DNA from: Saccoglossus kowalevskii
Taxonomy: Eukaryota; Hemichordata; Enteropneusta; Harrimaniidae
Assembly: GCF_000003605.2 (NCBI RefSeq)
Contig: NW_003147273.1
Coordinates: 13,992-38,533 of the forward strand
Length of the DNA: 24,542 nt
Direction of reading: 5' to 3'
The notes below the pieces were generated by a model. The model saw only the letters and a program-made list of their open reading frames with translations. It made no database searches and was not told the origin of the DNA. This document shows positions 1 to 23,705 of the stretch, in pieces; the first letter of the stretch is position 1, and every line of letters begins with the position of its first letter. The position numbers were made by a program, and so were the translations under genes.

Positions 1-770
1 ATTGTAGTCTACACTCTAAGATTGCATCATGGAACATTGTTGTCTACATTATAAGATTGCACCATGGAATCTTGGGACATTGTTGTCTACACTCTAAGAT
101 TGCACCATGTAATTATGGGACATTGTTGTCTACATTATAAGATTGCACCATGGAATCATGAGACATTGTAGTCTACATTATAAGATTGCACCATGGAATC
201 ATGAGACATTGTAGTCTACATTATAAGATTGCACCATGGAATCTTGGGACATTGTTGTCTACATTATAAGATTGCATCATGGAATCATGGGACATTGTTG
301 TCTACATTATAAGATTGCATCATGGAATCATGGAACATTGTAGTCTACACTCTAAGATTGCATCATGGGACATTGTTGTCTACATTATAAGATTGCACAA
401 TGGAATCATGAGACATTGTGGTCTACATTATAAGATTGCACCATGAAATCATGGGACATTGTAGTCTACATTCTAAGATTGCACCATGGAATTGTGGGAC
501 ATTGTTGCCTACACTCTAAGATTGCACCATGGAATCATGAGACATTGTAGTCTACATTTTAAGATTGCACCATGGAATTGTGGGACATTGTTGCCTACAC
601 TCTAAGATTGCACCATGGAATCATGAGACATTGTAGTCTACATTTTAAGATTGCACCATGGAATTGTGGGACATTGTTGCCTACACTCTAAGATTGCACC
701 ATGGAATCATGGAACATTGTTATTGACACTTGAGGATTGCACCATGCCAATTGATATTCCAAAATTATTT
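1..770. repeat. 43-bp satellite/minisatellite array
   Basis: About 17-18 units of a roughly 43-bp repeat with core GTCTACATTATAAGATTGCA followed by CCATGGAATCATGRGACATT. Variants include CACTCTAAG for CATTATAAG, and shortened units near 330 and 366. Pairs alternating AATTGTGGGAC and AATCATGAGAC from about 490 to 700 repeat as dimers. The array runs off the left edge and lies in an SRPRB intron. It decays at 715-770. Confidence 0.95.
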
Positions 771-1380: not shown

Positions 1381-4300
1381 CTAAAAATAGAACAACAATA
1401 GAGGGAATGTCAGGGAGATATAGACAAGTTTTGAATGTCCCATGATTCCATGGTGCATCTTGAAAACTTGTTTGGTACAAAACATAAGCTGATACAGTAA
1501 AATATTCATCTAAATCTGCATATTCCTGCTGACCGGGAATGAATCAGACAAAATTGACAGATTTCATGATCAAGTTTTTGTCCTCCAACGTTTTTGTGCA
1601 ACTATTTACAAGTCTGTAATTCTCGTAATTCAATAACAATTTTAACCAAACCAATGACGGGAATTATAGATTTTTGATTTTTTTATAGATTTTGATTTGG
1701 CCATTGGTGTTATACTACTGTATTTGTTCTATTATTAACACTAAATTAAGTCATATTTTAATGATCCAGTAAACAGTAAATGCAATGTGCATTTCAAATA
1801 GAGGAAATATGGTATTGTTTTTTCTCCAATGACTCCTGTTAGTAGTAGTTTAGAATCAATGTGTTTTTTGTGGTATGCAAGACATCTACAAAAAACACCT
1901 GGCATCGATGATCTTATTAGCCATAAATGTATATTCAAACGACACATACTCAGTTTTTGATTGGTCAAATCTGAACCATGTAAAGTAAGATTCTCTCCAT
2001 TGGTTAGTTCTGCTCTTTAGCCATGCAAATTTATTCAAACATCACTTAACACAGATTGGTCAAATCTGAACATCAAGCAGTCTGTTGGCTGAGATAGTTT
2101 TGCTGTTATCAATGGACATTTCAATTAAAGAACTGAAGATATCATTAGAAAATGAACAATATGAATAGTATCAAACCAATCGGACTTACAGTTTTTTTAA
2201 CAAGAAGTCGAAAATAACACTTTTATCACGAAATAAACAAATCTGAGAGAGGTATACCTGTAGTACCTATATATAATATCAAAGCAATCAGACTTGCATT
2301 TTTTTACGAGAAGTCAAAAGTATCACTTTTTACCAAAACATCACAAAATGAACAAATCTAAGAGAGGTTTACCCAAGGTACATATACACAAAGTATTAAA
2401 GCATTCAGGCTGTAAGTTGTAGTTTTCAGGAAGAACTCGAAAAAGTAAAACATTGACACAGACTCCGACGGACAATCACTCATATGATAAGCTCCACTCG
2501 ACAAAGTCGACAACGGAGCTAAAAAAAGTTGAAATTATCCATAACAATGATAATATCTTTGAGAACTTTTTATGAAAAAGTAAAGCTCGGGGAGAAAAAT
2601 TACGCTTGTACTGTATCTGACTGATGTAACTGACTATCATTGTGTTTGACTATCATTGTTCGATGCTGAGCATATTCACTCACCTTACTAAACAACAAGG
2701 TCTTTCCAGAATCACATAATCCAACAAGTAGTACACCTCTTCTAGTGTTCTTTCTACCGAGAATTATCTTGAACAGAACTGTAATAATTATGAATTTCAT
2801 TAAAATTATTGTATTTATTTCAAATTTGAGTTTCAATAAACTTAATTATTAGTATTAAGTGACAGAAAACTCAATCAAATGAGATGAAATAGAACCAGTT
2901 AAAATATTGAGTATTTGAGCAGAAACTACAAGTTTTAACCCAAGAATAATATTGGTTAACAAGTCACTAAAAATTAACTTCCACATTTAGGGCCACTTAT
3001 CATTATTCTAATGATACAACAGATATATTTCACAGATGGGAGTGGTCTATTTTAATGCTGAGATGAAGAAGACAATGTCTTTTGCACTTGTTGTTTTATT
3101 GTTTATTTTATCCGAATCAATAAACGATAAATCTACATTCTGATTATTTTTTTTTATCATGCTACGTATGATGGAAGTGTACTTCACTGCAGTCAAGATG
3201 ATGGTTGTGCGTGGAATTGAACAGGTCGTTAGTTTTCACTTTTAAATGTTTATGGGTTTCTATGAATCTTTGTTCACATAATACTTAGAATTCAATTCTG
3301 GCCTTCATTTCATGATGGGGTAAAAGTGTTATTCCTGTTCAATTTTAACAATGTTAGCTATTAATTCACATCTTATTTGTTTTATCGATCAGTATTGTAT
3401 CTGTGGTGTCAAAAATAAATATCATCTTGTGTTAGCTTATTTTTAATGTGACAATATAAACAGTCAAAATAAACGTTCGAAAACTGCAGCAATTATCCTA
3501 CTTCCAAAGAAACAAAGTCAATGTTCTTCCTGTGGTTTGTAGTTCCATGATTGGAGCTTGCTCTCTCAAGCAAATTCTGACTGGTACATTAAAGTTTCTG
3601 GAGAAACACTAACTGACCTCTGCTTTTTATAATTCAAAAATGTAAAGTGGAATTGACGGAAACATTGAAAAAATTTCATTTAAAAAGAAATGTAGGTACA
3701 AAAATCTGGTTAGGATGATGGTTTTGGTTAGGTTTAGTTTTTCATGTTTCCATGACCACTCTCCCAGGTTTCAATTTCCGGAAATTCTACACGATGATTC
3801 ACATTTTTGCAACAGTTCTTTAAAACCGGATCACCCCTACCTGAACCCTAACCCTACCCCTAAACCAGACCACCCCTACCTGAACCCTAACCCTAACCAT
3901 GGAGGTAGAAAAGAGAAGGAGTGAGAACGCTATTGTTTCCGCTGGTTTCATAATGCTTTGGATTTATTTACTCAGTACACATTGTAATTATTTGGCAATC
4001 ACGCTGTCAAGTGTCACCGTTAATCGGCTTACATGTTTCGGCTGTATTCGGAAACTTCACAAAGATTCACGACGCACTGCTCATGCCCAAACAGATAACA
4101 ATAATACAAAATGCAGCGAAAGATGTACGCTGAGTGTACTCAATACCCCAAATCTATTGTAACATAAGGCGCGATTTTCAACATCTGCACAGTTCTGCAC
4201 ACCGATGAAAATGCCCCGTCAAAACATCTCGCCATAAACTTATCATGTATCTTTACATTTCACTGCAAAAATTTGTGGGATTTTTTTAATCAATGTCCAA

Positions 4301-5318
4301 AGTTGCACGACTATTTCGATGAAAAATATCAGAAAAGAAGTAATCACACATCTTGGAAGCATCAATATACAAAATTTCCAGTGCCTACAAGTGTGAAATG
4401 ACCTTTATGACCCGATGAAGGTCATTGCGCACGCACAATTCTTTTATTCATGGTTTGCGCATTCAATTTTATAGACAATGTTTAAACAGAATTTATTTTT
4501 TTCAGTTCTACTCTCGTTTTCTTGTGTAAATAAGCGACTATCATCATGTAGATAAAACGACTTCTAAACAAAAACAATAATTGGTTTAACCAGAGAGAAG
4601 ACAAAGGGTGTTTATAAGATTGACATGGGCTTAAATAGCGTCCTCACTCCTTCTCTTTTCTACCTCCATGCCCTAACCACAGTCCCTCAACACTATGCAC
4701 TAACACTCCAGCTCCCATGTAATTCAATATGCCCCTCCAAATAATTATAAGTGATCTAAAGAGGGGTATATAGAATTGAAATGGAGGAGGGGTAGTGGAG
4801 GGACAGGGTTGGGATTAGAGTTATGGGCGAGAGGGGCCTAAGGATGGAGCTCCATGACCTAAGGAACTCTTACCAAATAGTATCCATTCATTCACGCTCT
4901 CAGTTCCGTCTTTTTGTGATCGCATTCATAGACAATATGAAGTTATATAATTTAGTTCTTGGGTTCTCTGTATCGCGTTATTTTTTATCGGAAGGTTCAT
5001 TTTATGCTCGCAGAGTTTTTGCGCACAAAATATACAAATATAGACTACTGAATTGCAGCTAAGAAAGCACATGTGGTATAACTACGAATAGATTTTTATT
5101 CTGAACCACAACACATGTGCCTTTGAAATGGTACCATATGTTCAGTGAATGGAATATTATCTTCAGAAACACAATTTGGTTAAAAAATACTAACCTATTG
5201 TTAGAATAACTACAGCTAAAGCAACCACAACACTCAAAACAACGGGATCTTGTTTGGATATTTCTTGTTTCAATAAATTCACGTAGCGATCAATTTCTCG
5301 AAGCTCTTTGGTCGCCAT
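1220..5318 (-). CDS. SRPRB: Signal recognition particle receptor subunit beta, 5' three exons (partial gene)
   Basis: Small Ras-like GTPase that anchors the SRP receptor alpha subunit in the ER membrane and takes part in docking ribosome-nascent chain complexes at the translocon. Coding exons read on the minus strand are 5318-5195, 2778-2684 and 1380-1220. They join in frame through donors GTTAGT, GTGAGT and GTGGGT and give about 126 residues. What is seen: a short cytosol/lumen-side lead (MATKELREID), then a membrane segment at about residues 26-46 rich in V, L and I, a P-loop GLCDSGKT at 61-68, TQTS at 82-85 (switch I region) and DLPGHE at 107-112 (G3 motif). The family signatures SVVVA, VLLVGLCDSGKTLLF and DLPGHE match animal SRPRB. 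The G4/G5 motifs and C-terminus should lie left of base 1; no later exon was found in 1-1219. The start is the first ATG before the conserved N-terminus. Family assignment is near certain; only exon-edge details are inferred. Confidence 0.93.
1436..1461 (-). repeat. Single inverted unit of the 43-bp satellite
   Basis: The reverse complement matches the satellite core (GATGCACCATGGAATCATGG) with one deleted base. It sits on the other side of SRPRB exon 3 from the array, in the opposite orientation. Confidence 0.8.
1917..2072. repeat. Two-copy ~98-bp tandem duplication
   Basis: TTAGCCAT...ATTCAAAC...GATTGGTCAAATCTGAAC occurs at 1917-1976 and again at 2017-2072. It includes the motif TTGATTGGTCAAAT that is also the core of the 30-bp minisatellite near 18 kb. 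Confidence 0.7.
2161..2460. repeat. Three-copy degenerate tandem repeat, ~108-117 bp period
   Basis: Copies begin near 2167, 2275 and 2392. Each has TAT(C/T)AAA-C-AT(C/T), then a GAAGTCGAAAA-like segment. The first two also share ACAAATCT(G/A)AGAGAGGT. The third is truncated. Confidence 0.75.
2684..2778 (-). CDS. SRPRB: SRPRB coding exon 2 (P-loop)
   Basis: Acceptor ATTATTACAG ends at 2779 and donor AAG|GTGAGT follows at 2683. The exon is 95 nt, two bases plus 31 codons. It finishes the membrane helix, gives the basic stop-transfer stretch GRKNTRR, and carries the nucleotide-binding P-loop GLCDSGKT. Confidence 0.93.
3832..3897. repeat. CCCTAA-rich short repeat
   Basis: Two copies of CACCCCTACCTGAACCCTAA separated by CCCTACCCCTAAACCAGAC. 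Six-base CCCTAA runs resemble the animal telomere motif, but the tract is short and degenerate, so it is an interstitial repeat. Confidence 0.75.
3898..4670. mobile_element. Non-autonomous DNA transposon, ~38-bp terminal inverted repeats
   Basis: The left end CATGGAGGTAGAAAAGAGAA and the continuing GGAGTGAGAACGCTATT are matched in reverse complement at 4633-4670 with one mismatch. Both sides are flanked by CCCTAAC (3891-3897 and 4671-4677), a likely 7-8 bp target duplication, although the left flank is itself CCCTAA-rich. It is 773 bp with no transposase. The superfamily was not assigned. Confidence 0.82.
4671..5194. other. Intron 1 remainder
   Basis: Contains a purine-rich GGAGGGG stretch (4780-4850) and the 12-bp palindrome ATGGAGCTCCAT bracketed by CCTAAGG on both sides (4840-4866), perhaps an insertion scar. 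The rest is unremarkable. Confidence 0.4.
5195..5318 (-). CDS. SRPRB: SRPRB coding exon 1 (N-terminus and membrane anchor)
   Basis: ATG at 5318-5316. The exon encodes 41 codons plus one base: a polar stretch (RYVNLLKQEISKQDP) and then a V/L/A/I-rich membrane helix. The donor is G|GTTAGT at 5194. The first base of the split Val codon pairs with TT at the start of exon 2. Confidence 0.92.
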
Positions 5319-5438: not shown

Positions 5439-5955
5439 GGGGGGGGGGGCAAGGGTTATTTTCGTTCAACGTAATTGCAATATTTTTTTGTCCGTACAAC
5501 GTAAATAGAAAAAAATAAATTTCGTAATTCTGTAATCAAAGGCTAGACGTACAACGTAATCAATCAAATATTTTTTTTGTACACTGTAAAAATGTGTCAT
5601 TTTTCTCGTACGTACAAGAATTTACATCCAAAAAATCGTAAAGAAGAATCCAGGGAAATTACATTTTAGAAACTGTAAAACGACTAGATGACACAATTCA
5701 CTACAAAATTGAATGTCAAGACGCAAAAGGTCCTCTAACCGAATGAAGAGCATTACGAGGGTAATATGCGCATGCGTCTCTACACTCGGCGAGGCAATGG
5801 CGGAGAATATTTGAGTCGGAGAGTTCTTTGGACCATTCAATGTACCATTTTTTTAACACTGTAAACTGTATAAACGTCTTTTTTTCCTTGTAAATTGTAA
5901 AAAGCCCTTTTTATTTCCCGTAAAACCGTACCAGCTACCCCCCTTGCCCCCCCCT
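5439..5955. mobile_element. MITE-like element with G-run termini, next to the SRPRB start
   Basis: Starts with eleven G then CAAGGG and ends CCCTTGCCCCCCCCT, forming terminal inverted repeats. It is flanked by a CAATATC duplication at 5432-5438 and 5956-5962 (7 bp, or 8 with a mismatch), compatible with a hAT-type element. Many copies of CGTACAACGTAA/GTAC-CTGTAAA motifs lie inside both ends, as subterminal repeats do. It is 517 bp with no transposase. Confidence 0.75.
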
Positions 5956-6514: not shown

Positions 6515-6840
6515 TCCTCGGGGGCGGACATCCGGGCATTTTCTACCGCCTGGCAACCCTCGCGGTGAAAACAAAGACCAAAAACTCGCAGAAAACGGTA
6601 CTTTGCGATGGTTGATGAGAGTCCCCTGAACAGTGTAACAAGATTAGCCCTACGTGTGTAACATATATGAATTTGGTTGTTCAGGATTACTTCAAAGATG
6701 AGTTTGTGTTGTTTTCTCGAGTTTTCACCGGCTCTACCGGCATTCCACAGCAGCACGCACAAAGCCCATAGAAATACGTGGTACAGTGGTGCGCGTCTTA
6801 GCAACGTAGAACGTCTGTGACGTAGCTCCGCCCCCGAGGA
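6515..6840. mobile_element. 326-bp MITE with TCCTCGGGGGCGGA ends
   Basis: Perfect 14-bp terminal inverted repeats TCCTCGGGGGCGGA / TCCGCCCCCGAGGA, flanked by TA on both sides. This suggests a TA target site as in Tc1/mariner-like elements. It is GC-richer than its surroundings. The open frame through it (minus, 104 codons) is a by-product. A relative lies at about 11060-11150. Confidence 0.82.
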
Positions 6841-6842
6841 TA

Positions 6843-7257
6843 AGTCAAGATCAGTAAAAAATTGAGGACAAATAGTAAGTAGTGAATTGTTTTTGGATTA
6901 TATTTCATACAATGTAATTGAAATAAGATTCTAGTTTGAAATTTTTTTAGTTTAGCTATTTATTTTTCCTTATTATACATCTCTCACTGTAAAGCCACAA
7001 GTTACAGCGCGCCGTGATTTTGCAGTATTTTACGGGGTGTTTTCATCCTACCATGTTAGGAAATGCTAATTCCAAGTATGGAATGATTACACGCGTAAGT
7101 GTCCTCTAATAATAAAAGCAAACATGGCAGATCCCAGGGTTTGACTGGACTCCACACAAAGAAGTTCGCTGATTCTGTTCTAAACATTTTGGATTTTGGC
7201 ATTTCCATGATGCACTAGTATCCTAGGGAGGAAAAAATGTATACTGCATGTAATAAT
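6843..7257. other. Intergenic, no feature seen
   Basis: AT-rich sequence without recognisable coding or repeat structure. Confidence 0.5.
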
Positions 7258-7342
7258 GTTATTACGAGGATACCGAAAAGTATGCTGCGCATACTCCCGC
7301 TGTACTGTCTATGTGCATACTTTTGGGTATCCTCGTAATAAC
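7258..7342. mobile_element. 85-bp foldback MITE
   Basis: 28-bp inverted ends: GTTATTACGAGGATACC then (G/C)AAAAGTATGC, 27 of 28 bases pairing, around a 29-base loop. A related half-copy lies at about 12525-12577. Confidence 0.8.
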
Positions 7343-8322
7343 CTCATATAATAAAATAATGAAAGATTACATAATAATAATGAAAAAATAATTAATAATA
7401 TTAAATTATATTTAAAAAAAAAAACCATATACTATAAATCAGATTTCCATCCTATTGACGTTTCATATTGTTGATTTTTTTTTCTGGATATTTGCAAAAC
7501 CTCATTAAAAAAAAATCTTTTACTAAATGTTTTTGTGAAGGCTTGGCAGCTCAAACAAAGTAATATATGATAAAATTTACATAGCATCAAATTTTTTTTA
7601 ACACAACTACAGTTAATTAGTCAATCACTCCGATTTCCTCCTTTATAATGTTTTTATTTAATTCTGGAAATGACTGGATGTATGTTCTTGATGGATACAA
7701 CATATTCACCAAAACTTGTAATACTTAACATTCTGTGTGGCAAGTCCACTTCTGTCATCTCACTTTCACAAAATATAACATTTCGATCAACACAAGTAAA
7801 CAATTTATGATCCATTTGATCCAAAATTAACAAAATCATAAAAAAATGCTTAAAAATTTGCAAATATTTATACCTAATATTTGATGGGTAAGCTTATATT
7901 GTTTAAAGGAATAATTGGACATTCATATGTCATGTGTCTCTTCCTCTGACTATATTTGATCAAGGATTTATAAGATTGGGATATGCAAATGAGCGATATG
8001 CGACATCTCTTGTGAATTTACGCGAATTGCGAGATGATCTACATTTCTAAAACTCCTAATGCAATATTAGAGATTTTAAATTCAAGACGAAATTTGCGTA
8101 ATCCGCCACAAAAATTAAATGATTTGATTTTGAACATGAATTTTTTTTTTTGAAGTTCAATGTTGAAATGCTTTCAGAAAGAAACATGACACTGAGGTAC
8201 CAAAATATTTCATTAAATATATAGCACATTATTAAGAGTACAAATACTGCAAGTTCACATGGATTTAATTAAGCAAATTTCCCTTATCAGTGAAAATCAG
8301 CGAATAATTATTGCATTTACAG
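7343..8322. other. Intergenic, AT-rich
   Basis: Apart from the doubtful exon at 7654-7863 and a fragment of the 207-bp MITE end at about 8287-8324, I see nothing definable. Confidence 0.5.
7654..7863 (-). pseudogene. Possible C-terminal exon or gene remnant, unidentified
   Basis: An open frame on the minus strand whose last 55 residues look protein-like (for example MDHKLFTCVDRNVIFCESEM, then TEVDLPHRML). Its stop codon overlaps an AATAAA signal. Hydrophobic/charged alternation suggests a beta-rich domain, but I do not recognise the family. A possible acceptor TTTTTAAG lies just upstream of HFFMILL. No matching upstream exons were found in 7864-10000. It may be a real 3' terminal exon, a decayed gene, or chance in AT-rich DNA. 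Confidence 0.25.
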
Positions 8323-8324
8323 TA

Positions 8325-8531
8325 CTGTAAAAAGGTTAATTATTCACTGGATTTTAATTTTGCTTATTTTGCAGACTGGAAAATGCGCTAAATTGAAACC
8401 CAGTGAATATGTCAAATATAGGCTAGAATACATTATCTAAATGATAAAACCGTGAATATAAAACCCACTGAATATGCCTGAAATGATAAATCAGCAAAAT
8501 TTAAAGCCAGTGATAATTATTCATTTTACAG
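8325..8531. mobile_element. 207-bp MITE, copy 1 (CTGTAAAA...TTTTACAG)
   Basis: Ends CTGTAAAA and TTTTACAG flanked by TA (8323-8324 and 8532-8533). Subterminal TTATTCACTGG / CCAGTGATAATTATTCA are inverted. The same 207-bp element occurs in the opposite orientation at 20688-20894. Confidence 0.87.
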
Positions 8532-10066: not shown

Positions 10067-10267
10067 CTACACATGAGAATTGTGTAACAAGAAATTCTTT
10101 GCGTCATGCAAATTCGTCTTCATTAATTCAACTCGTTTATTTTGCATATCCTTCAATGTTTCGTACAGTAGCTTATCTGAAATGCTGGCATCAATATCAG
10201 TGTGATACAACATAGACAGAATTGCTGATTCTTTAATGGTCAAACCTTCATCAAATTCTTCCATTAT
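10067..10267 (-). CDS. Dioxygenase gene exon 7 (C-terminal helical tail and stop)
   Basis: 201 nt, acceptor TTTCTTTAAAG (ends 10268), phase 0, stop at 10067-10069. The 66-residue tail is rich in E, D, K and L and predicted helical by composition (FDEGLTIKESAI, KLLYETLKDM). It ends NSHV, so there is no classical ER-retention signal. A candidate AATAAA on the minus strand lies at 9713-9718, about 350 nt downstream. Confidence 0.82.
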   Translation of the reverse strand: MMEEFDEGLTIKESAILSMLYHTDIDASISDKLLYETLKDMQNKRVELMKTNLHDAKNFLLHNSHV

Positions 10268-13200
10268 CTTTAAAGAAATATATTAAAGAAATAAGATTGA
10301 TAAGATAAGGGTCACATGATCTCACTTTCATAACTATGTTCAGTGATTTGCGATAAAAATCGCACACGAATTGAACTCTTGTAATTTTCGAATCTTCAAA
10401 GCGATTTCATTCCGTTGGTATCAATCATTTGTATATCTAACGAATAGTGTTACAGAATGCAGTGGAAATGCATGATTGCGTATAAATAAAAATAAAATAA
10501 GATTTTTGCCGCATTCATAAATTGTAAACAAGTGTATTAAAGGCTTTGTAACAATTTAAGGCAAGAATGATTATCAAAAAGATCTAAGATGAACATGAAC
10601 CAGTTCATAAAAATGTAGGTTTTTCTTATAATTTTGTGATCACCTCGCAATTTGTGCGATTTTTTCAATTCATGTTGGAATTTCATCGCATATCACACAT
10701 TTGCATACCATAATTTTATAAATCCATGATGTTATACATACACTAGGACCCCAGTAAAAGTCACTGTGATCTAAAGATCCACATATTTGAAATGCAATCA
10801 CTTACCTCTCTCAGTGACTTGCCCATGGCTGTTCTTTTATCTTTGCTGACTTTTACAGCAAATGTATATCTAGCATTGTGTACGTCAGCACTCGGTGGTC
10901 TGGCAGAATGTGGAATTATGCCTGTAATTAACCATATGATTTTTAATAACTCGTAATTAACTGAACAGTAACGGTATAATTAATTTCCCATACAAAGCAT
11001 CATTCGCTGCACGGTGTTGTTCTGTTTGGACATTACTCCCTCCACAACACCATGCGGTAATTCACCAGCGTTTCACAACAGCTCGCGCAGAGCCCATAGA
11101 AATACACGGTAGAGTGGTGCACGTCTTGTGACTTAGCTCGCGGCGAGGATTTTGATAGCTTGGCCAACCGCATTGATGAAATATGAAATACTTCAAGATG
11201 ATAGTGGAGTGCATCGCCGGAACTTTCACCTTGAAAATTCAAGATGATACAAAGTGGCATTTAAAGAGAGATAATGGGTTATTTAGGGCCTATATATATA
11301 TATCAGAGAATACTTGTACGAAGTTTGGTGATGAAATATCCTCATTTAGCTGACTTAAAATTAACTTGAGTAGCGCTGTTTTTTTTTTTAAATTTAAAAT
11401 GATTATTACAAGAAATTAAAGCGGAGGAGTATTCACCAGCGAATGTGCAGGAAATGTGAGTGCCAAACAACAATAACAAGGCATGATAAAACACAAAGGC
11501 TCATGGGTAGACCATTGTTTGTAAGCTATGGTCGTTTGCCACATGCATAATTGACAATCCTTCACTTTAAAGTGTACTATTTAGAAACAGTCTTTTAATG
11601 ACACAGACTGAAGAGTGAATTAACCACTAGACTTTAATATGGTGAACAAACAGATTAAAGGGGAACCGCTCAATCCCATGGATTGCACCAAAAAATCATG
11701 GGACACTATTGCTTATGTTGTTTACAAAGTTAATCTATCTTTTGTTATCAATTGTAATTTTAATCCAGAAAGTAAATTTGTTGTGAGATTAGGCTTAACT
11801 GGAAGTGCCCCTTTAAGATTGATATGCTATGTATTGATGTCAAGAGAAGTCATTTTAATGTGCATCTTCAGAATTATTACACAGTGCTTACTAAGCCATG
11901 GTTGTCGTGTAGTACGTGTTCGTATTTCATGTAAACAAACAATGTATTTTACATGCATTATGTACGTCCCATACCGAACAGGACCACGCCCTTTAATTAA
12001 CTTGTAAATATTCATAGTATAATTAGATGCAAGCAACTACTGTATTGAAATACAAAATGCAAAAATATCTTTTTACACACATAATCTGCATAAATTAGGT
12101 AGAAGCTTCAATACAAACTAGTTTGATAAATTCACAAATGTTTTTTACACTTTCATAGAACATATTGAATGTGCCTAGAAACCAAATTAAATAAATCATC
12201 CAAAATCAGTGATCAAGAATGTCAACACTAATAGTGTACGTTAGTTACCATGGTTACCACAGTCTGATGTCACTTAATACGTTAAAATTTCATTAAATAC
12301 TTTAATTAAAAGTCAGCTATACTATTCAGTTTGCAATATATCAATTATAATTCAATTTAGATGCATAAATCAAAATTGTAATTTTTTTTTAGTTTAATTT
12401 ACCATCATATTTCATTTAAATAAAACACACCGTATTTGCTCTATTAGAGCAGCACCTAGGCCAAAAATAAAATACTGGATTATTAATAAAATATCTAAAA
12501 ATAAAAACAAACATAGCGTCGGTCGATACTCTCGCTGTAGGCAGTTCAAGCATATTTTTCGGTATTCTCGTAATAACCTCATAAGCTCATAAGCTTCTGA
12601 TAGATACAGTATTTCGTAAGTAATAAATTAAGCCATGTATTTCTGACTAGTTTGAAACACTACAGCTTTCGCATAATGTGTCATTACTTTCACATTCACA
12701 GTCACATTAAAGTCACACATTTAACACATTGCAATGGTATCACCCATTTGTCACAATGATTCTGCATATTTGTTTCACACTAATACATTACATAGTTGCT
12801 TTGTATATTTTAAAGACTTGAGTGACAATCTAAATCTTGATTGTCCAGCTCTGCAATAGAATTTCTTTTTTATTGCTTTTCGTCAAAAAACAAAACAGTC
12901 TAATTGCAAAAAGAAGTAAATGATGTCAATGTTTTACTGTCAAAGAAAATTGTCCCTCATTAACATATCCAATGAATGCAAAATGAACATCCGTCATCTT
13001 TCCCGAAATTAACATGTATAACAATGTAGATGTAGCTAATGAAAATTTAGTGCAAAAAAAAAAAAAAAAAGTAAGAAATAAGAAATAAAGACAATTCCTG
13101 ATTGGTTGAATGGTACTAGTGTTAGGATTGATTATAAAATTATAACATACCACGAAATATGGCAACCCGTCCATATTTAGGTGTTACAGCGCCGATTGGT

Positions 13201-16200
13201 TCGTATTGTTCATTACCAGTGCTTTCACCAACCAAATGAGTAATTGGATCATTAATTTCATTGAAGTAAACTGTCTCCCCATATTTGTTGACGTCCCAAT
13301 CCGGATTCATATAGAGCAGGAAAGTGAATTCATCCTTGAGTGAAAAGAATTGATAAGTGAATTTACTCTCACTAAGCACGCATAGAAATTAATGACAAAT
13401 GAACATATTTTTACTGAGCATGCGAGAAATGTTTCCTCACTGGGCACCATCAAGTGTTTGTGTTCAACCATGCGAAAACATTTTCTTTGGATGAAGATAA
13501 TTCAAATTTTATTTGCATCACTTAACAAACCCACAAAATGATATTACATATACTATTATAATCACAACTGAGTAATAATCAATGTTTCTAACAACTCAAA
13601 AACTAGTTATTTACCTGTTAAATAATGTAACCTGCTTACGCAACTGTGTGATTGCTTGCTACTAAACCAATGTGTTTTTATTTGAAACTTGTTCTATACT
13701 TTCATTTGCCAAGTAAATTAAAACTAATACATATCATTACATTAGACAGTACATGTATCACAGGGAAATGCCAAATATTTTTTTGAGACTATAAAATTTA
13801 ACAATTTGTTATGCATGTTTTAGAACCAATTGAAGGCATTTTATTCCTGTCTCACGCCTAAAATTAGAAAAATGACGGCATTATTTTTGATATCTTGCAA
13901 GCCATGTCATGAATAGTGTATTGAAGCTATAATAGATTGAAATTGCGATAACAAAAATGTGCCAAAAGTTCTCCCTGGACATGTTTCGGAGCAAGCTCCA
14001 AAAATATGACCCGTCCTCCAAAAAATCACGTAAAACAAGATATCAGACAAATACAATAGTTGTCTTTGCCCCTAAAACAGTTACTCAGTGAACAATGTTT
14101 GACAGAAGGAATAGAACACGATTTGAGCATTTCTTTTTTTCTCTCTCCCTCTCTCTTCAGTCTGAGTTCTATTAACAAAAATTTACCTCAAACTTTTCGC
14201 AGTCGGTATGGATATGTGTGTGATCTGCATTTCTGATAACATTCAGCGACACGTCATATGGATACCACTCAGTTCTGTTGTTACTAATGTGTTGAGCAAC
14301 TTGAGACACAACGTCCCAAACGTTACTAGGAAGAAATGAATCAACCTGAAAAACAGGTATTAATTAATTTGGTTACTATGATGAATATTAGTGCATGTTT
14401 ATTTCAAAGTGTGACATTTTACAATATAGTAAATAATAATGTCATGTTCTTTATTCTTACATATGTGCCCGGGGGGTCACTCTATATGCTGTTACTACCC
14501 CATGTGCGTTCCAAATTTAGCGGGGAAGCAGAGTGTTTTTCAACTTCTAATTTATTTATTTATTAACACACAACATCCCCCGGAGGGGATGAAAAGGGTT
14601 ACAAATCAGATATTAGTAAAAGAAAAATAACCACATAAAAAGAAAGGGAACAAAAAGGCATAAAAAAAAAAAAAAAGATAATAATTTGAATACGAGGAAT
14701 GTATTACTGGCTTAGTTTACGTAGGTGCTGCTGTCTTGTATTAAAACAGTTTTTTAAATAAAGCGGGCCCGCGCAGGGAGCAAATAGGCCCCTTTTAAAA
14801 TGCTAATGTCTGCAATAGGCCCGCTTTAGGCCCCCTCTTGCAACAACCACTCCCATACACCGCCCTAGGCCCCGAATTGGCGGACCCATAGCCCCGACCA
14901 GGCCGCAAACGTCTGCCCGAACCTTCACACCGAGACTTTGCCGCCACTTCCAACACGAGCATACGGAGGCTTATTGTAATCGAAGAAACAAAACAAAACG
15001 AAACGAAACGGGATAACACAATAATAATAAAAATTAAACTGTATTCAGTGACAATGGCTGAAAATAATATTTAAGCAATAAACCACCGCCGGAGACGAAA
15101 CTTGACCAGTATTTTTATTTATTTATTTGTTACTACCCTTTTACATCAGGGGTTCACTAATTAGTAATTAGGAGCTGCAATAAAAATTATTGGAAAAAGC
15201 ACATACTATATAAATGAAAAAGGAAACAGACAATTTAAAACTTAAAAGGAAGTACAAAAATGTAAAACTTAATGAAAATACAAAAAAATAAAACCTTTGA
15301 ACTTAAAGTAAATACAGTAAATAAATCTAATCTACATAATCTCTTCTATAATCCCATGACATCAATAAGATATCTTTCCACAATTCTATTGAATATATTT
15401 ACTTTTCAGTCGTGTATTTAACACCCTAAAATATTTGCCGAAAACAACGGGATTTTAATTAGTAAGTAAGTAAACGTAAGTAAGTAAACGTAAAAGTAAG
15501 TAAACGGTTCGTTTCGCTAATTAAAGATAATCGGAAATCTGCAATCACGCTGCGAAACAAGGGTCTTACAGGTACAATAATCACAACTATCGGACGAAAC
15601 TTGAGCGGTATTTTTACCTTTCAATCGTGTATAAATCTTCATAAAAAAATTGTCTATAATTAGCGAAACGAACCATTCACTAATTAAAATCCCGCTATTT
15701 TCGACAAATGTTTCATGGTGTTAAATGCACGACTGAAAGGTAAATACTAGTATACTGGTCAAGTCAAGTATCGTCTGACAGTTGTGAATATTGCTACGTG
15801 TCAGACCTGAATCTGATTACAGATTTTCGATTATCTGTAATTAGCGAAACGAGCCATATGCGTATTAAATATTATTATTTTCGGCAAATATTTTGTGAAT
15901 ATTGTGCGTATAAAACCCATTTTCCCTGATTACAGTTTAATTTTCATTATGTGTGTTATCCCATTTCGTTTCGTCGATACAATAAACCGCATACAGAAAG
16001 TCATTTCCCAGAATCATTCACACTTCCGAAACTCCTTTCGCTCCTCGGCCTTATTCTCATTCAGCTCCGGCTTTTTTCTGGGTTTTCTGCCCTGCATTCA
16101 TGCCAAACTCTCTCAAAGTTGAATATAAAATGGTAATGGTATCCGATGGAATAAGAATCCTGGCAAAGTTGTGTGCATTGTGATCATATTCACAATCATG

Positions 16201-19200
16201 TCAATAGTTCTGATCTTTCTTCATCAAACAACGAATGACACCAACAGGAGTTGCATACACAGTAACTTGTTTGAGTTGATCACACTCCACTTGATTGCAA
16301 AAAACGGCAGAGAATCCTCGCAATAGGGGGTAGGATGTTCTCAATATATGTCTGAAATAAGGGGTGTTTTTTTCTTCAATATGTCTGCTCCAGGGGGTAC
16401 TAAATTTACATTGCGTCCGCAATAGGGGGTATGGTTTATCAATGTGCTGCCAGTCCTAGGGGCCTATTATTTTTTAGCAAGAACGCACATGGTGTAAGGT
16501 TTTAATATTGAGTGACCCCCCGGGCATATGTGGCAGTTTATGAAACAAAGACAAGAAAAATAAACTAAAAATATAGGGTCACCATACTCAGTTAAGAGAA
16601 AAATGATGTATATTATAATGTAAATTAAATGTTTTATTTTACAATTGTTTCCTATGGCAAGGATAAATCTTAATATCTCGAAATTTTCGCCAGTAACACA
16701 TGGTGAAAAAGTTATATATATATAGTGTCATTGCAATGTCCTTGCTCATTTCTTGAAGTATTACATAATTGATATTATTTTATAGTGTTGATGTGTTTTC
16801 ATTATGGTCTATGGCTGCTGAATTCGACATTTTTTTTTTCTCAAAAACCAGATTGACAATGAATTAAAATAATTCATATATTGTTCCCTAATACTAAAAT
16901 TATTAATTGTAAAAAGATTTTAATCAGAAATAAATTATTGTAAGAAAAATATGTGATAATGATAAACTGGTTTGTATTCCTTCCTCAATTATAGCTTAAG
17001 GTTTTGAGCAAGTAAGTTTAAAACACTTAAATGGGAGGAGTTGTCACCTGCGCATGCATCAGATGGCCATAGCGTGTCATTGTTTACAAACAAGCGTCTA
17101 CCCATGATCCTGTGCGTTTTTAGCGTGTGTTGTTATCGTCACTTGGGACTCGATTCCCACGTGTGCGCAGGTGATGACCGTCCCACTTTAAATAAATCCG
17201 ATTTTGGGACAAAACGCTTTGTATAAAACATACATAATAATTTTAATATAATACACTGTTCATAATAAAATGGCTGAAGGATTTTATATTTTTCAACTCA
17301 AATTCGGAAATTATTGCACATACATCTACAACCAGCCTCCTCTATTTTAGGTCTAAGAGGAAGTGGAGCATTTCTAATATTTGCTGTTGAGCAGATTAAA
17401 CTAATAGTGAAATAGACATACTGTGAACATTTTTATCCAGTTCACGTTGTCACCGTCCTCCGGTAAAGTGACATCGGTATCAGCAAAACGCAATTTTCCC
17501 TTAACAGTCGTGAGAAATTGGTACAATATATCCAATTGTTCTTTTGTGAATAAATCATCATAAACTGCAACAGGTCTAAAAATGAAGAATACAGATATCG
17601 ATGATAGGTCAGATGATTTGATTGGTCAAATATATGAATGTTTGAATTTGATTGGTCAAATATATGAATGTTTGAATTTGATTGGTCAAATATATGAGTG
17701 TTTGAATTTGATTGGTCAATTATATGAATGTTTGAATTTGATTGCTCAAATGTATGAAGTATAAGTAGGTCAAATATATAAATGTTTGAATTTGATTGGT
17801 CAAATATATGAATGTTTGAATTTGATTGGTCAAATATATGAATGTTTGAATTTGATTAGTCAAATGTATGAATGTTTGAATTTGATTGGTCAAATATATA
17901 AATGTTTGAATTTGATTGGTCAAATGTATGAATGTTTGAATTTGATTGGTCAAATGTATGAATGTTTGAATTTGATTGGTCAAATGTATGAATGTTTGAA
18001 TTTGATTGGTCACATGTATGAATGTTTGAATTTGATTTGTCAAATACATGAATGTCTGAATTTGATTGGTCAAATGTATGAATGTCTGAATTTGATTGGT
18101 CAAATGTATGAATGTTTGAATTTGATTGGTCAAATGTATGAATGTTTGAATTTGATTGGTCAAATGTATGAATGTCTGAATTTGATTGGTCACATGTATG
18201 AATGTTTGAATTTGATTTGTCAAATACATGAATGTCTGAATTTGATTGGTCAAATGTATGAATGTTAGAATTTGATTGGTAAAATGTATGAATGTTAGAA
18301 TTTGATTGCTGTCGCATATGACTTGTTTACCACTTCCGTGTCACTGAGAATGTTCTAGAAACGTACTGTGTCTGGGTAGAATATTCTAGATTTTTAGGAA
18401 CTGGTTGGATAGGTAATAGAACACCGTAGAAGGCAATAGAAGGTAATGGAACATTCTAGAAATTTGTACATGTAGTAAGTTCCAGACTCATTATGTATGC
18501 TGATGTAATGGTCTATTTATAGACAGTGGGAGTATATATAGGGGAGTTGTTCAGCACTGAGTTCAGATCGGAGATCTCGTTGTATTGTATTGGAGTTTAA
18601 GTATCTAGTTATTGGAGTAGTGGAGTTTTACCACGTTATTTTACTTGATGTTTGCAGAGTATAATAATACCAGTACCAGTTGAAACCTCATCTGTTGGCT
18701 CCGTGTTCGTATTTTATCATCGCCGCCAGGGAAGTCTTTCTGTTACTGTTGCCATTTTGGTATTTGAACCATCACACCTGTACTATACCAATTACGGTAA
18801 AATTACGTTGCGTGTGACAATTGGTCAAATGCATGAATGTTTGAATTTGATTGGTCAAATGTATGCATGTTTGAATTGGATTGGTCAAATGTATAAATGT
18901 CCGAATTTGATTGGTCAAATGCATGAATGTTTGAATTTGATTGGTCAAATGTATGCATGTTTGAATTTGATTGGTCACATGTATGAATGTTTGAATTTGA
19001 TTGGTCAAATATATGGAGTACAAGTAGGTCGAATGTGTGAATATGATAATTAAATAAATCCTACCTTCCCTCTCCATCATAGAATTTTCTTGTAAGATGT
19101 TTATCTAAATCATATTTTGGTATTATGCCTGGTAATGTGGGAAATACCTCAGATTTGAAGAATATATTTTCAGTTTCCAAAAGTCTCTACAAATACAATA

Positions 19201-20610
19201 AGAAATAATAGGGATAACTCATTTATCAGTAGTTTTCATTTCTTAATTCTATTCTATTTTATTTCTTTTCAATTCTATTCTCTTTCAATTCTATTCTATT
19301 GCTTTTTGATTCTATTCAACTGTATTGTACTCAATTCAATTCAATTCTATTCTACTCTAATCTTTTCCTTTTCAATTCTGTTCTATTCTCTTTCAATTCT
19401 ATTCTTTTTTATTCTATTCAATTCAATTACATTCTACTCTAATCTATTCCTTTTCAATTCTGTTCAATTCTATTCCTTTTTATTCTATTCTATTCAATTC
19501 AATTCTATTTTACTCTAATCTATTCCTTTTCAATTCTATTCTATTTTTATTCTATTTAATTCAATTCTATTCTACTCTAATCTATTCCTTTTCAATTCAA
19601 TTCTATTCTACTCTAATCTATTCCTTTTCAATTTCTATTCTATTCTATTTTGATTCTATTCAATTTTATTCTATTCAATTACTATTCAATTCTATTGTAT
19701 TTTTTTCTGTTTCATTTTGAATTCTATAATACATGCCGGAAATTTAATTAAAGCATTGTTAGACAATTCTAAACTTAACACAAAAGATAAAATTAGTTGT
19801 TGTTAGTGTTTCAATAAGAAAGTGAATGGACAAGAGACTGTAGGTTAATGTATGATTTATCGCTTACATTTAACTCTGAGGCAGTATTTCGATCAAACTA
19901 ACCTTTTTGGATTTCTCCAATTCATATTCATATTTTTCTTTTGAATCTGTAGCCTGAACCAACAGAATAAGACCACTGAAAACCTGTGCAATGGAGGGAG
20001 GGTGATACATATGTGGAATAGTGCCATTCCAGAAGGTGACACGACCAGACTGGGGATGAGCCGTCCATAGAATACTGGATACAGATCCATTGCGGTGTCT
20101 GGAGTAGAGGGACAGGTTACCATAGTCATTCTTTTTCCAGTTAATATCACTCAAAAACAGCATCAGCATAAAATCGTCACTTGTTGTCTCTTCCAAAACT
20201 AATGGTTCAAACCTTCTTGTGATAGTGCCCATTACAGAAAATGGATAGAGTGTTTTGTGTGTGACACCAGATACCGCTCTGCTCATGGCCTCCCACAAAT
20301 ATGTTTTGGAAAAAAATTCCAGTTGCATTTCGGACCTCCATAATAAATTTGATTTATCAACATCCCCAAGTTTATCATGATAATTCCATATGCTAAAATG
20401 AAATGCTGCAATACGAAGCTGTTCTAGGAGTTCATCAGTAAAGAGGTCATCAAAGACGGCCGCCTGACAACCATCTTTAGTATCATAGCTATGTACTAGA
20501 TGTTTGGTGACATCAAAATTGGTTTCCGTAGCAACCGCACTGTAGTTACTAAGTAGAAAGAATGCTAACAAAAATAGTCCTACTTCACCGAAGTCTTGCA
20601 TCTTTGTCAT
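10067..20610 (-). CDS. Tandem 2-oxoglutarate/Fe(II) dioxygenase-domain protein, secretory (prolyl-hydroxylase-like), complete gene
   Basis: Seven minus-strand coding exons: 20610-19903, 19186-19065, 17575-17422, 14345-14187, 13334-13151, 10921-10806 and 10267-10067. They total 1,644 nt, giving 547 residues plus stop. An N-terminal signal peptide (hydrophobic core about 11-20, possible cleavage after SAVA) and sequons at N165, N174, N195 and N351 indicate ER/secretory location. Domain 1 (about 31-225) and domain 2 (about 256-470) align with each other (KHL...VxDDLFT..., then IPHxxxPPS). Domain 2 keeps HTD (H374, D376), distal H447 in IPHSARPPS and R460 in RYT, so it should bind Fe(II) and 2-oxoglutarate. 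Domain 1 has leucines at both HxD positions. A charged, helical tail (about 482-547) follows, with no KDEL-type signal. The family is the 2OG-FeII oxygenase/prolyl 4-hydroxylase-like superfamily; the substrate is unknown. Collagen P4HA, leprecan and lysyl hydroxylase are poor fits in length and architecture. Confidence 0.9.
10268..10805 (-). other. Dioxygenase gene intron 6
   Basis: No repeat or exon recognised beyond two similar AAATCGCACA segments at about 10356 and 10650 in opposite orientation. Confidence 0.6.
10806..10921 (-). CDS. Dioxygenase gene exon 6 (distal His and 2OG Arg)
   Basis: 116 nt, acceptor TTAATTACAG and donor GAG|GTAAGT. It encodes IIPHSARPPS, RYTFAVKV and SKDKRTAMGKSLRE. 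H447 is the distal iron ligand and R460 (RYT) the likely 2-oxoglutarate carboxylate binder. R450 is an alternative for that role. Confidence 0.88.
11060..11150. mobile_element. Degraded relative of the 326-bp MITE
   Basis: Shares AGCCCATAGAAATACACGGT-type sequence, then AG(A)GTGGTGC(A/G)CGTCTT and CGAGGAT, with the right half of the element at 6515-6840, in the same orientation. About 15 bases near the right end are deleted. The left end was not found. Confidence 0.75.
11415..11574. mobile_element. MITE copy related to 17026-17192
   Basis: The reverse complement shares CCATAGC, TTACAAACAA, TCTACCCATGA and TGTTGTTAT-like blocks, in the same order, with the element at 17026-17192. Degenerate ends GGAGGAGTATTCACC and GACAATCCTTCACTTTAA correspond to the same inverted repeats. 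Confidence 0.75.
11681..11711 (+). repeat. Lone unit resembling the 43-bp satellite
   Basis: GATTGCACCA, three extra-like A bases, AATCATGGGACA then ATTG matches the satellite unit of 1-770 at about 24 of 28 bases. It lies 11 kb from the array. Confidence 0.6.
11896..11992. mobile_element. Short repeat copy related to 21917-22039
   Basis: Shares GTGTTCG(A/T)ATTTCATGTAAA then CAAACAATGTATTTTACA and CCCATA(T/C)CGAAC with 21917-22039. The right end GGACCACGCCC resembles the inverted end of that copy. Confidence 0.72.
12525..12577. mobile_element. Half-copy of the 85-bp foldback MITE
   Basis: GATACTCTCGCTGTA ... CATATTTTTCGGTATTCTCG then TAATAAC matches the right part of 7258-7342. Both copies are followed by CTCATA. 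Confidence 0.7.
13151..13334 (-). CDS. Dioxygenase gene exon 5 (beta-helix core)
   Basis: 184 nt, acceptor CTTTTCACTCAAG-type site ending at 13335 and donor G|GTATGT. It encodes DEFTFLLYMNPDW, then KYGETVYF and KYGRVAIFR, strands typical of the double-stranded beta-helix fold (Y/GGET-F and GR-IF-G). The final G starts Gly443. Confidence 0.88.
13335..14186 (-). other. Dioxygenase gene intron 4
   Basis: Contains a pyrimidine-rich stretch at 14130-14160 on the plus strand. No repeat family or exon recognised. Confidence 0.6.
14187..14345 (-). CDS. Dioxygenase gene exon 4 (HxD iron ligands)
   Basis: 159 nt, 53 codons in phase 0, acceptor TGTTTTTCAG and donor GAG|GTAAAT. It encodes VDSFLPSNVWDVV to HTHIHTDCEKFE. 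H374 and D376 in HTD are the predicted facial-triad ligands. NRT at 351-353 is a glycosylation sequon. Confidence 0.88.
14545..14640 (-). mobile_element. Probable non-LTR/SINE 3' tail fragment inside the transposon
   Basis: Read on the minus strand, it ends CCCCTCCGGGGGATGTTGTG followed by TGTTAATAAATAAATAAATT, an (AAAT)n tail typical of CR1/L2-like or SINE 3' ends. The body extends to about 14640. Confidence 0.45.
14764..14990. other. GC-rich block within the transposon
   Basis: Rich in GGCCC, with repeated AATAGGCCC and TTTAGGCCCC motifs, in sharp contrast to the AT-rich neighbourhood. It is followed by an AAAACG-type simple repeat (14985-15010). No convincing coding frame. Confidence 0.5.
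15108..15395 (-). mobile_element. Second probable non-LTR 3' tail fragment
   Basis: On the minus strand it ends CCCCTGATGTAAAAGGGTAG then TAACAAATAAATAAATA. The ending and tail resemble the fragment at 14545-14640. Confidence 0.4.
15397..15746. repeat. Long inverted repeat (hairpin) inside the transposon
   Basis: The outer arms 15397-15462 and 15680-15746 are inverted copies (TTTCAGTCGTG..., CGGGATTTTAATTAGT). An inner perfect 18-bp pair lies at 15506-15523 and 15657-15674 (GGTTCGTTTCGCTAATTA). A further partial copy, AATTAGCGAAACGAGCC, is at about 15841. AGTAAGTAAACG repeats lie between the arms. Confidence 0.75.
17026..17192. mobile_element. ~167-bp MITE with GTCACCTGCGCA ends
   Basis: The left end (TTAAA-TGGGAGGAGTTGTCACCTGCGCA) and the right end (TGCGCAGGTGATGACCGTCCC-CTTTAA) are imperfect inverted repeats of about 30 bp. 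A second, inverted copy lies at 11415-11574. Confidence 0.78.
17422..17575 (-). CDS. Dioxygenase gene exon 3 (start of domain 2)
   Basis: 154 nt, acceptor CATTTTTAG (ends 17576) and donor ACA|GTATGT. It encodes PVAVYDDLFTKEQLD through NWIKMFT. VAVYDDLFT aligns with AAVFDDLFT of domain 1. The phase (one base completing AGA) fits exon 2 exactly. Confidence 0.88.
17611..18309. repeat. 30-bp minisatellite, left block
   Basis: About 23 units of TTTGAATTTGATTGGTCAAA + TGTATGAATG. The unit length is a multiple of three and lacks stops in three frames, so long artificial frames appear on both strands (10-residue repeats NLIGQMYECL and TNQIQTFIHL). A 180-bp higher-order period is visible: 18001-18060 and 18181-18240 are identical. 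A variant unit, GAAGTATAAGTAGGTC, breaks the block at 17755-17771. Confidence 0.97.
18310..18819. mobile_element. Solo LTR inserted in the minisatellite
   Basis: 510 bp beginning TGTCGCA and ending TGTGACA (TG...CA with inverted ends). It is flanked by ATTGC (18305-18309) and ATTGG (18820-18824), a 5-bp duplication with one change. The minisatellite resumes in phase on the far side. A TATATATA box at about 18532-18540 followed by GTTGTTCAGCACTGAGTTC looks like an LTR promoter with start site, reading on the plus strand, opposite to the host gene. No internal retrotransposon genes or second LTR remain. Confidence 0.85.
18820..19030. repeat. 30-bp minisatellite, right block
   Basis: About seven units of the same repeat, with GCATG variants alternating in every second or third unit. 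It ends with GGAGTACAAGTAGGTCGAAT, the same odd unit type seen at 17755. Confidence 0.95.
19065..19186 (-). CDS. Dioxygenase gene exon 2 (linker into domain 2)
   Basis: 122 nt between acceptor TTTGTAG (ends 19187) and donor AAG|GTAGGA. It encodes RLLETENIFF through YDGEG and the first two bases of an Arg codon. The stretch PKYDLDKHL mirrors NFDVTKHL of domain 1, which supports the exon. Confidence 0.85.
19187..19902 (-). other. Dioxygenase gene intron 1
   Basis: 716 bp, about two thirds of it a TTCTA/TTCAA pentanucleotide tract (19236-19710). Confidence 0.8.
19236..19710. repeat. Degenerate pentanucleotide (ATTCT/ATTCA)n tract with longer period
   Basis: Almost wholly built from TTCTA, TTCAA and CTTTT words. 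A higher period is visible as ACTCTAATCTATTCCTTTTC, recurring about four times with intervals of roughly 60-80 bp. On the sense (minus) strand it is purine-rich. Confidence 0.92.
19903..20610 (-). CDS. Dioxygenase gene exon 1: signal peptide and degenerate 2OG domain 1
   Basis: 236 codons in one exon, ending AAG|GTTAGT. It holds the whole N-terminal domain, including DDLFT (54-58), the strand DDFMLMLFL (145-153) and IPHMYHPPS (198-206). Where an active enzyme has HxD, this exon has L137-V-L139. The 2OG-binding Arg seen as R460 in domain 2 is replaced by Gly here. An in-frame TAG lies upstream at about 20662, beyond a possible splice acceptor at 20632. M4 is an alternative start. Confidence 0.9.
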
Positions 20611-20687: not shown

Positions 20688-20894
20688 CTGTAAAATGACT
20701 AATTTTCACTGGGTTGAAATTTCACTGATTTAGCATTTCAGGCATATTTAGTGTGTTTTAAATTCACGGTTTTATCATTTAGATAATGTAATCTATGTTC
20801 ATTTTTACATATTCACTGGGTTTTAATTTAGCACATTTTCCAGTCAGCGAAATAAGCAAAATTAAAACCCAGTGAATAATTAACTCTTTTACAG
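20688..20894. mobile_element. 207-bp MITE, copy 2 (inverted relative to copy 1)
   Basis: CTGTAAAATGACTAA...TTCACTGGG to CCCAGTGAATAATTAACTCT then TTTACAG. Preceded by TA; the right flank is TT. Exactly 207 bp, as in the copy at 8325-8531, and reads as its reverse complement with many shared blocks (GATAAAACCGTGAAT, CATTATCTAAATGATAAAAC). Confidence 0.87.
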
Positions 20895-21916
20895 TTACAT
20901 TAATAAACAATCCATTTCAGGAAGCCATTAAGCAAAGAATTAAATACTACAATACATAGAATGACAGCTGTAAAAATGCTGGATTTCCTAGTTCTTTCTG
21001 TTTTATAATGACAAATAATAATACCCTGGTAATGATATTTTTTTTATTGATTTGTCACACTTTATTATGATGAGTATATTGGATTATGATATAATCTGAA
21101 AAAGTTATTCCCACAGTATACAACTGAGTACTTCTTCGATGAAACAATGAAATTCTATAATACGCATATGCACTGTTTTTTTGGGTACGTAAAAATAACA
21201 ATCACTCCACATGCACATTTTGCATTTTTCATCTAAAGAATAACATACAATGCAAAGCAAAATCACCATTTTTAGTTTCTGATAAATCATACAACATTAA
21301 TTAACTTATCATATCAACCAAAAATATTAAAAATTATGTGTTTTCTTTTATATTGCATTTATAATTTCAGAGTGTTAAAATCAGAGTACCACAGTGGTAA
21401 TACAGTACACAATCATAATTTGTGTAAACAAACAAACAAACAAATAAACAAACAACCTAAGTGACATGCAATGTATATCAAACATTTTAATATTTAAAAA
21501 AAATAATTAATTATTATAAGCAAAGCAAAATGAGATTAAAAACAAATGTGGAAAACCACTTTAGTTTCAGCCAGATTAGTTGCATTTCAAACATATTAAT
21601 TTAAGTGCAAAACTGAATAAATAATTAAATTCTTAAAATATACATATATGTCGTGTCAAAGTTTTATTAATTTCAAAATGTGAAATATGCTTATTTTATT
21701 ATTGTAAGAAAAATCTACTCAAGTTTTGAAAACAGATTGTATGTGGAGAAAATACTGTTGAAGTAGCTAGTTGGCTTATTAGCAAATTTACTCAGGGTAT
21801 AAATTAACAGAACCTTAATATCGACGAATAATATCAAAATTGAGGACTAGGGGATTACAAAGCATGGCCCAGCTTTTCAATGGAAATACCACATGACATG
21901 TTGTCAACTAAAAAAT

Positions 21917-23329: not shown

Positions 23330-23705
23330 TTTTCGCTATGAAAAAGGCCACAGATCGTAAAAACCATAAACACCATGCCAGTTTACAATAATAAGAACAT
23401 AGTCAAATCCACTAGTATAACTAAATAACAATACATAAATACATAAACAAAAACATACTAAAACAGTTTAACAAAAGGGCTTGGAAAAATCAGGGAATTG
23501 ATAATTACTGTATCGCATAACCATACTTTCTTTTATAAAAATGTTACCCATAATGTATTTTAAATTCTGACTCTTCATCCATCAAATGGAAATTAACAGT
23601 TTTATTTCTAATTGAGTCAAACAATTTGTTCCTGATTGTAATATGTTGTGGGCATTTCATAACATAATGGTATTCATCCCAATATCACATGTGTTATTAT
23701 CACGT
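23330..23705 (-). mobile_element. Decayed non-LTR retrotransposon (LINE) 3' end
   Basis: A minus-strand frame from 23678 to the stop at 23544 reads DEYHYVMKCPQHITIRNKLF and onward, the cysteine-containing C-terminus (xEYHxxxxCPxxxxxRxxLF) found after the reverse transcriptase of many animal LINEs. TCDIG just upstream is in another frame, a one-base frameshift. About 200 bp of AT-rich 3' UTR follows to about 23330. The reverse transcriptase core is absent, so it is 5'-truncated. Confidence 0.65.

Follow-up and report, generated by a model that had tools for sequence, protein, structure and literature searches.

A gene on the minus strand of a 24,542-nucleotide stretch of the Saccoglossus kowalevskii genome (contig NW_003147273.1, positions 13,992 to 38,533; hereafter the window) is likely, in our judgement, to encode a 2-oxoglutarate (2OG)/Fe(II) hydroxylase of the secretory pathway, in which the C-terminal domain (D2) would be active and the N-terminal domain (D1) would be a pseudo-oxygenase that arose by internal duplication and supports D2. 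The original prediction of a live C-terminal and a dead N-terminal 2OG domain agrees with domain homology, Pfam matches, residue counts in alignment columns, the structural model of D1 and the paralogues, as far as sequence comparison and structure prediction can indicate. The main addition is a set of paralogues in which D1 has lost its catalytic residues in different ways.

Structure of the gene

The gene model consists of 7 minus-strand exons spanning positions 20610 to 10067, with GT...AG introns in every case. The spliced sequence of 1,644 nt reads in phase into 547 amino acids and a stop codon. D1 is contained in one exon, and D2 is spread across exons 2 to 7:

10067..20610, minus strand: whole gene, start to stop codon, seven exons (in-phase splicing, GT-AG introns)
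19903..20610, minus strand: exon 1 (708 nt), residues 1-236, encodes the presumed signal peptide together with the whole putative pseudo-oxygenase domain (D1)
20530..20610, minus strand: presumed signal peptide, about residues 1-27 (hydropathy only)
19065..19186, minus strand: exon 2, linker, then start of D2 (spliced model)
17422..17575, minus strand: exon 3, D2 (spliced model)
14187..14345, minus strand: exon 4, D2, carries HxD (spliced model)
13151..13334, minus strand: exon 5, D2 (spliced model)
10806..10921, minus strand: exon 6, D2, carries the distal His and the Arg (spliced model)
10067..10267, minus strand: exon 7, C-terminal tail and stop (the protein ends in HNSHV, with no KDEL-type end)

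An open run of 235 codons has an expectation of about 0.0006 per window at the composition of the window. The join of exon 1 (19903-20610) to exon 2 (19065-19186), set beforehand as a test of the prediction, appears sound from the consensus splice sites, the frame and a relative on contig C52 of the same genome, in which D1 and the start of D2 share one exon and lie inside one 325-codon open frame. It is thus highly improbable that the model is an artefact, made by joining a pseudogene or two adjacent genes of one domain each by eye. The splice sites were placed by consensus only, and D1 has one exon and D2 has six, as such an artefact might have, but all exon phases fit and D1 is also followed by D2 on one strand in a second relative, on contig C2853.

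Homology of the two domains and loss of active-site residues in D1

The 2 domains align along their length, as had been claimed: BLASTP gave an E-value of 6e-15 with 48 identities in 203 columns (24%), and the Smith-Waterman score was 156, compared with a best score of 59 among 1000 shuffles of D1. Furthermore, a profile-profile comparison of the window and C52 D1 domains against the corresponding D2 domains with 28 relatives gave a probability of 98.6.

The relatives came from searches with alignment A3, which recovered 202 loci from viral contigs and one, alphaproteobacterial, from genome contigs. No relatives were found in viral contigs searched with D2 alone or in genome contigs searched with alignment A1, and tblastn of plasmids with D2 gave no match. 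The best 80 of the 202 viral loci and the bacterial locus, 81 in total, were thinned at a likeness of 0.85 to 40 (39 viral, 1 bacterial), all of which were included in the trees. Alignment A4 contained 38 of the 40 loci, with L023 and L067 removed by hand, and alignment A8 contained 28 (27 viral, 1 bacterial). The positions that define the 2 sites are as follows:

14202..14210, minus strand: D2 H374-T375-D376, putative Fe ligands (alignment columns)
10908..10910, minus strand: D2 H447, putative third Fe ligand (alignment columns)
10869..10871, minus strand: D2 R460, putative 2OG-binding Arg (alignment columns)
20188..20202, minus strand: D1 L137 to E141, place of the lost HxD (the L139 column has H in 38/38 relatives)
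20011..20019, minus strand: D1 I198-P199-H200, distal His kept (alignment; His in 38/38 others)
19972..19974, minus strand: D1 G213 at the 2OG-binding Arg column (R in 38/38 relatives)

The full catalytic set of HxD...H and Arg is present in D2, whereas the window D1 retains the distal His alone. Among the 28 relatives, the D2 columns contained H at the first His in 28, D in 21 and H in 7 at the Asp, H at the distal position in 28 and R in 28, and both the HTD motif at 374-376 and R460, named in the original prediction, thus fall in conserved columns. It was also noted that 7 of the 28 aligned relatives carry HxH instead of HxD, with the distal His and the Arg found in 28/28.

The HxD motif is indeed lost in D1, but its assignment to the exact residues L-V-L (137-139) depends on the alignment and shifts by one or two residues. 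The register was L139-E140-E141 in the 39-row alignment, with L139 under the first His and E141 under the Asp (D in 28 and H in 10 of the others). A 5-row MAFFT alignment placed E140 under the His and T142 under the Asp, and in the BLASTP register E140 stood beside a gap at the HxD place. No register supplies a His, since D1 contains none between H118 and H172. The retained IPH (I198-P199-H200) and the replacement of the 2OG-binding Arg by Gly (G213) were both as first described.

Family matches and predicted fold

In the Pfam search of the 547-residue protein, proposed earlier as a check, D2 cleared the cut-off of 2OG-FeII_Oxy_3 (PF13640). The whole protein scored 40.4 bits and exons 2 to 7 alone 27.3 bits, above the cut-off of 27. 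PF13661 scored 26.8 bits with the whole protein, slightly below its cut-off of 27, and was the sole match of D1 alone, with 17.2 bits. Outside Pfam, D2 matched NCBIfam FlmC (9.6e-15, below the FlmC cut-off of 240 bits) and PHROG phrog_274 (1.2e-18; D1, 0.0088). Cyanophage proteins named "DNA endonuclease V" (L005, L006, L009, and likewise PHROG 274) contain an HxD...H pattern and align with D2; for a family of 2OG oxygenases this name seems mistaken.

A D2 profile searched against the PDB matched OGFOD1 best (1.3e-6), followed by the putative hydroxylase 9blq (7.8e-6) and the HIF prolyl hydroxylase 6ey1 (3.6e-5), with further matches to prolyl 4-hydroxylases and PHD2. These matches place D2 near the prolyl hydroxylases, from afar. 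A PDB profile of the window and C52 D1 domains alone gave a single match, to a merozoite surface protein, at E 0.3. The structure of D1, prediction of which had also been proposed, was modelled by AlphaFold2 as an oxygenase (double-stranded beta-helix) fold with a predicted local distance difference test score (pLDDT) of 80. Among the top 1000 PDB chains, compared with VIA-align, the best fold matches were OGFOD1, AlkB and prolyl 4-hydroxylases.

Paralogues with different losses in D1

The 572-Mb assembly, in which the window corresponds to C3768:13992-38533, was searched with the window protein, C52 exon 1, C52 D2 and C2853 D1; the copy counts are lower bounds. At least 2 further relatives of the window gene were identified, on C52 and C2853. 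A search with PF13640 gave 6 matches, on C2853, C342, C351 and C2732; the window gene, with its D2 split by introns, was not among them. The exons on C342 and C351 are presumably HIF prolyl hydroxylase-like, judged by eye.

The C52 relative (locus L101; exons 3007-3943, 4376-4581, 5600-5744 and 7082-7338; 514 residues) has the same layout as the window gene, with a hydrophobic N-terminus, D1 and D2. Its D2 site is complete (H360, D362, H419, R432), and its D1 has L131, S133, F190 and N203 at the four site positions, none of the four catalytic residues. The whole C52 protein scored 50.5 bits with PF13640 and 40.3 with PF13661, and its domains matched FlmC below the cut-off (D2, 1.5e-23; D1, 0.00086). 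The C2853 relative (L125, L126) consists of a D1 in at least 4 exons, followed by two D2 stretches that reach the contig end; a run of N precedes the first visible exon and the remaining D2 lies beyond the contig. In its D1, H-H-D is retained, whereas Tyr replaces the distal His and Gln the 2OG-binding Arg; this domain matched FlmC at 4.5e-17, below the cut-off. Intron positions vary among the paralogues, D1 being unbroken in the window gene and C52 and split in C2853.

These sequences bear on whether D1 is alive, binding a metal or a 2OG-like ligand through E140/E141 and H200 and carrying another activity. H200 and the acidic residues at the lost HxD in the window D1, and the HxD retained in C2853, would fit such a site. 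However, the C52 D1 has neither the His residues nor the acid, its missing distal His argues against service of that His with other Fe ligands, and the Arg column reads G, N and Q in the window, C52 and C2853 domains. We therefore regard a live D1 as very unlikely.

The amino acid identity between the window and C52 proteins was 27% (47/174) for D1 and 45% (79/174) for D2, which suggests that D1 is freer to change but not free. The lower value for D1, the long D1 branches in the tree and the loss of different residues in each gene are what would be expected if D1 were decaying baggage of the internal duplication, with no present role. Nevertheless, the visible D1 reading frame is open in each of the 3 genes, the window D1 aligns with that of C52 far better than shuffled sequences do (z 19.8) and a fold is predicted for D1, and we consider the baggage explanation unlikely, if less so than a live D1. 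The different D1 losses in the sister genes suggest that the present role of the front half is to assist, not to catalyse.

In the tree with the 40 relatives, the five animal domains clustered together with support of 92/82, the D2 domains with 98/91 and the D1 domains with 69/73. In a tree inferred before C2853 was included and with the C52 D1 omitted, the window D1 joined the D2 domains (93/95). The simplest reading, which is not proven, would be a single internal duplication that preceded the split of the paralogues, after which the D1 sites were probably lost in different ways. Since C2853 kept the HxD and the window gene the distal His, the ancestral D1 had at least both by parsimony, and at minimum some of the losses were separate events. 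All 3 D1 domains lack the Arg, which may have been lost once.

Probable secretion signals

The most hydrophobic 11-mer of the window protein begins at residue 10, and the C52 N-terminus is hydrophobic too. Five sequons were found by pattern (22, 165, 174, 195, 351), and since N22 lies inside the presumed signal peptide, 4 remain, the number given in the original prediction. Hydropathy and sequons suggest that the protein probably enters the secretory pathway.

Proposed function and its weaknesses

In D2, H374, D376 and H447 would coordinate Fe(II) and R460 would bind 2OG. The reaction carried out by this domain would most likely be the hydroxylation of a side chain, that of proline if its nearest relatives are a guide. 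The substrate would be a protein or peptide of the endoplasmic reticulum, the Golgi or the outside. D1 would have originated by internal duplication of an active domain, with its fold kept and its cofactor site lost, and most likely supports D2 by contributing to the substrate groove, domain packing or dimerisation. A role in substrate binding, folding or dimerisation, as first suggested, would follow by analogy with the roles proposed for the dead C-terminal domain of OGFOD1.

Several observations weigh against this reading. The gene structure is based on splice consensus and frame, and the signal peptide call on hydropathy alone. The AlphaFold2 model of D1 was built from an alignment of 2OG enzymes, and AlkB was level with the prolyl hydroxylases among its fold matches. 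D2 probably has a prolyl substrate type, judged from sequence and fold matches that are distant. In C2853, the visible part of the gene starts within D1 and stops early in D2. With 42.1 bits against PF13640 (profile positions 9-75 of 98), this D1 exceeds the cut-off, so that two substituted residues are what speaks for its loss of function; since it also keeps HxD, the state of D1 varies inside the family. In the tree, the D1 domains have long branches and form a weakly supported clade (69/73). When the window D1 was omitted from the tree made before C2853, the C52 D1 stood apart from the D2 domains and a viral row, L022, adjoined them (93/95).

With these points in mind, we see an even chance that the genes represent a family, distinct from OGFOD1, of animal tandem 2OG hydroxylases that act in the secretory pathway. 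The N-terminal twin would then have become a pseudo-oxygenase whose site was taken apart in different ways in three or more paralogues, with its fold and its link to the live domain preserved. If so, the family would provide naturally replicated cases of how a dead oxygenase domain serves a live partner, and since the 3 paralogues lost D1 residues differently, it would allow a direct test of which pseudo-oxygenase surfaces are kept, and why. The gene also points to a hydroxylation in this animal that would act on secreted proteins and was not found described in the literature searched.

Surroundings of the gene

A downstream gene on the same strand (window 5381-1057, minus strand) looks like signal recognition particle (SRP) receptor beta. 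PF09439 (cut-off 25 bits) matched two of its exons, one over profile positions 3-38 with 23.4 bits and the other over 23-71 with 25.5 bits, and an N-terminal membrane exon at 5381-5193 was identified by eye, without a Pfam match. A tandem array with a 43-base unit in about 17 copies occupies window 26-746. Intron 2 contains a 30-base minisatellite at 17616-18308 and 18820-19015, separated by about 510 bases of other sequence. The region 14445-16547 in intron 3 may be a transposable element insertion: its inverted arms (43 nt, 77%) carry GGGGGGTCACTC-like ends separated by about 2 kb, and further inverted repeats are nested within. Near the gene (window 8294-8437 and 20782-20916) and near its C52 relative (about 6800-6915 of locus L101) there is also a short repeat, palindromic around "attcactgggttttaattt", which may be a small mobile element. 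A short frame at window 23547-23684, minus strand, presumably resembles the end of a long interspersed nuclear element (LINE) reverse transcriptase, judged by eye; it had no Pfam match.

Comparison with known systems

Among the papers listed on double-stranded beta-helix domains, titles and opening parts of abstracts pointed to no tandem 2OG oxygenase besides OGFOD1, nor did the corresponding parts of the other papers listed point to the live/dead 2OG layout; a search for FlmC with 2-oxoglutarate gave nothing. The collagen prolyl 4-hydroxylases and PHD2/EGLN share with the window protein a prolyl-hydroxylase type 2OG domain with HxD...H, and were matched by the D2 profile and the D1 model. They have one oxygenase domain, and the collagen enzymes carry other domains. 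Pfam reported none of these extra domains in the window protein, with no match up to E 10 to the N-terminal or peptide-binding domains of the collagen prolyl 4-hydroxylase alpha subunit. The original prediction, in which the architecture was not recognised among the named collagen prolyl or lysyl hydroxylases, did not name the OGFOD1/Tpa1/Ofd1 family, which has a live and a dead 2OG-type domain. The FlmC family and PHROG 274 (cyanophage 2OG oxygenases) were the best D2 family matches outside Pfam, but are microbial and phage proteins with a single such domain. LH3/PLOD has a live C-terminal 2OG domain preceded by an accessory domain thought to be inactive (excerpts of PMC6082870); the latter is glycosyltransferase-like, whereas the window D1 is of the 2OG type.

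The uS12 prolyl 3-hydroxylases OGFOD1, Tpa1 and Ofd1 likewise pair a catalytic double-stranded beta-helix domain in tandem with a second one that lacks a metal site. Among solved structures, OGFOD1 comes closest in the D2 profile search and shares first place in the D1 fold comparison. These proteins are cytosolic or nuclear. According to excerpts of PMC4396695, the two OGFOD1 domains are tightly packed, their proposed origin is duplication and loss, and the proposed roles of the dead C-terminal domain are substrate or partner recognition, stabilisation and oligomerisation; excerpts of PMC7864055 also concern OGFOD1. D1 was rejected as an OGFOD1-type C-terminal domain, as Pfam gave no match to Ofd1_CTDD (PF10637) in the window protein up to E 10, a search in which HMMER filters discard most weak matches. 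A PF10637 search of the genome was uninformative, since it gave zero matches, controls included.

The similar length (547 versus 542 amino acids) and the position of OGFOD1 as top PDB match of the D2 profile and among the top D1 fold matches could indicate a divergent OGFOD1/Ofd1 member with permuted domains. This is barely credible to us, given the missing Ofd1_CTDD match, the likely signal peptide and the identity between the halves, 24% in the window protein versus 12% in OGFOD1. Furthermore, the catalytic domain is N-terminal and the non-catalytic domain C-terminal in OGFOD1 (excerpts of PMC4396695). The active D2 and pseudo-oxygenase D1 would thus form another live/dead tandem with the order reversed, placed in the secretory pathway if the signal peptide is real.

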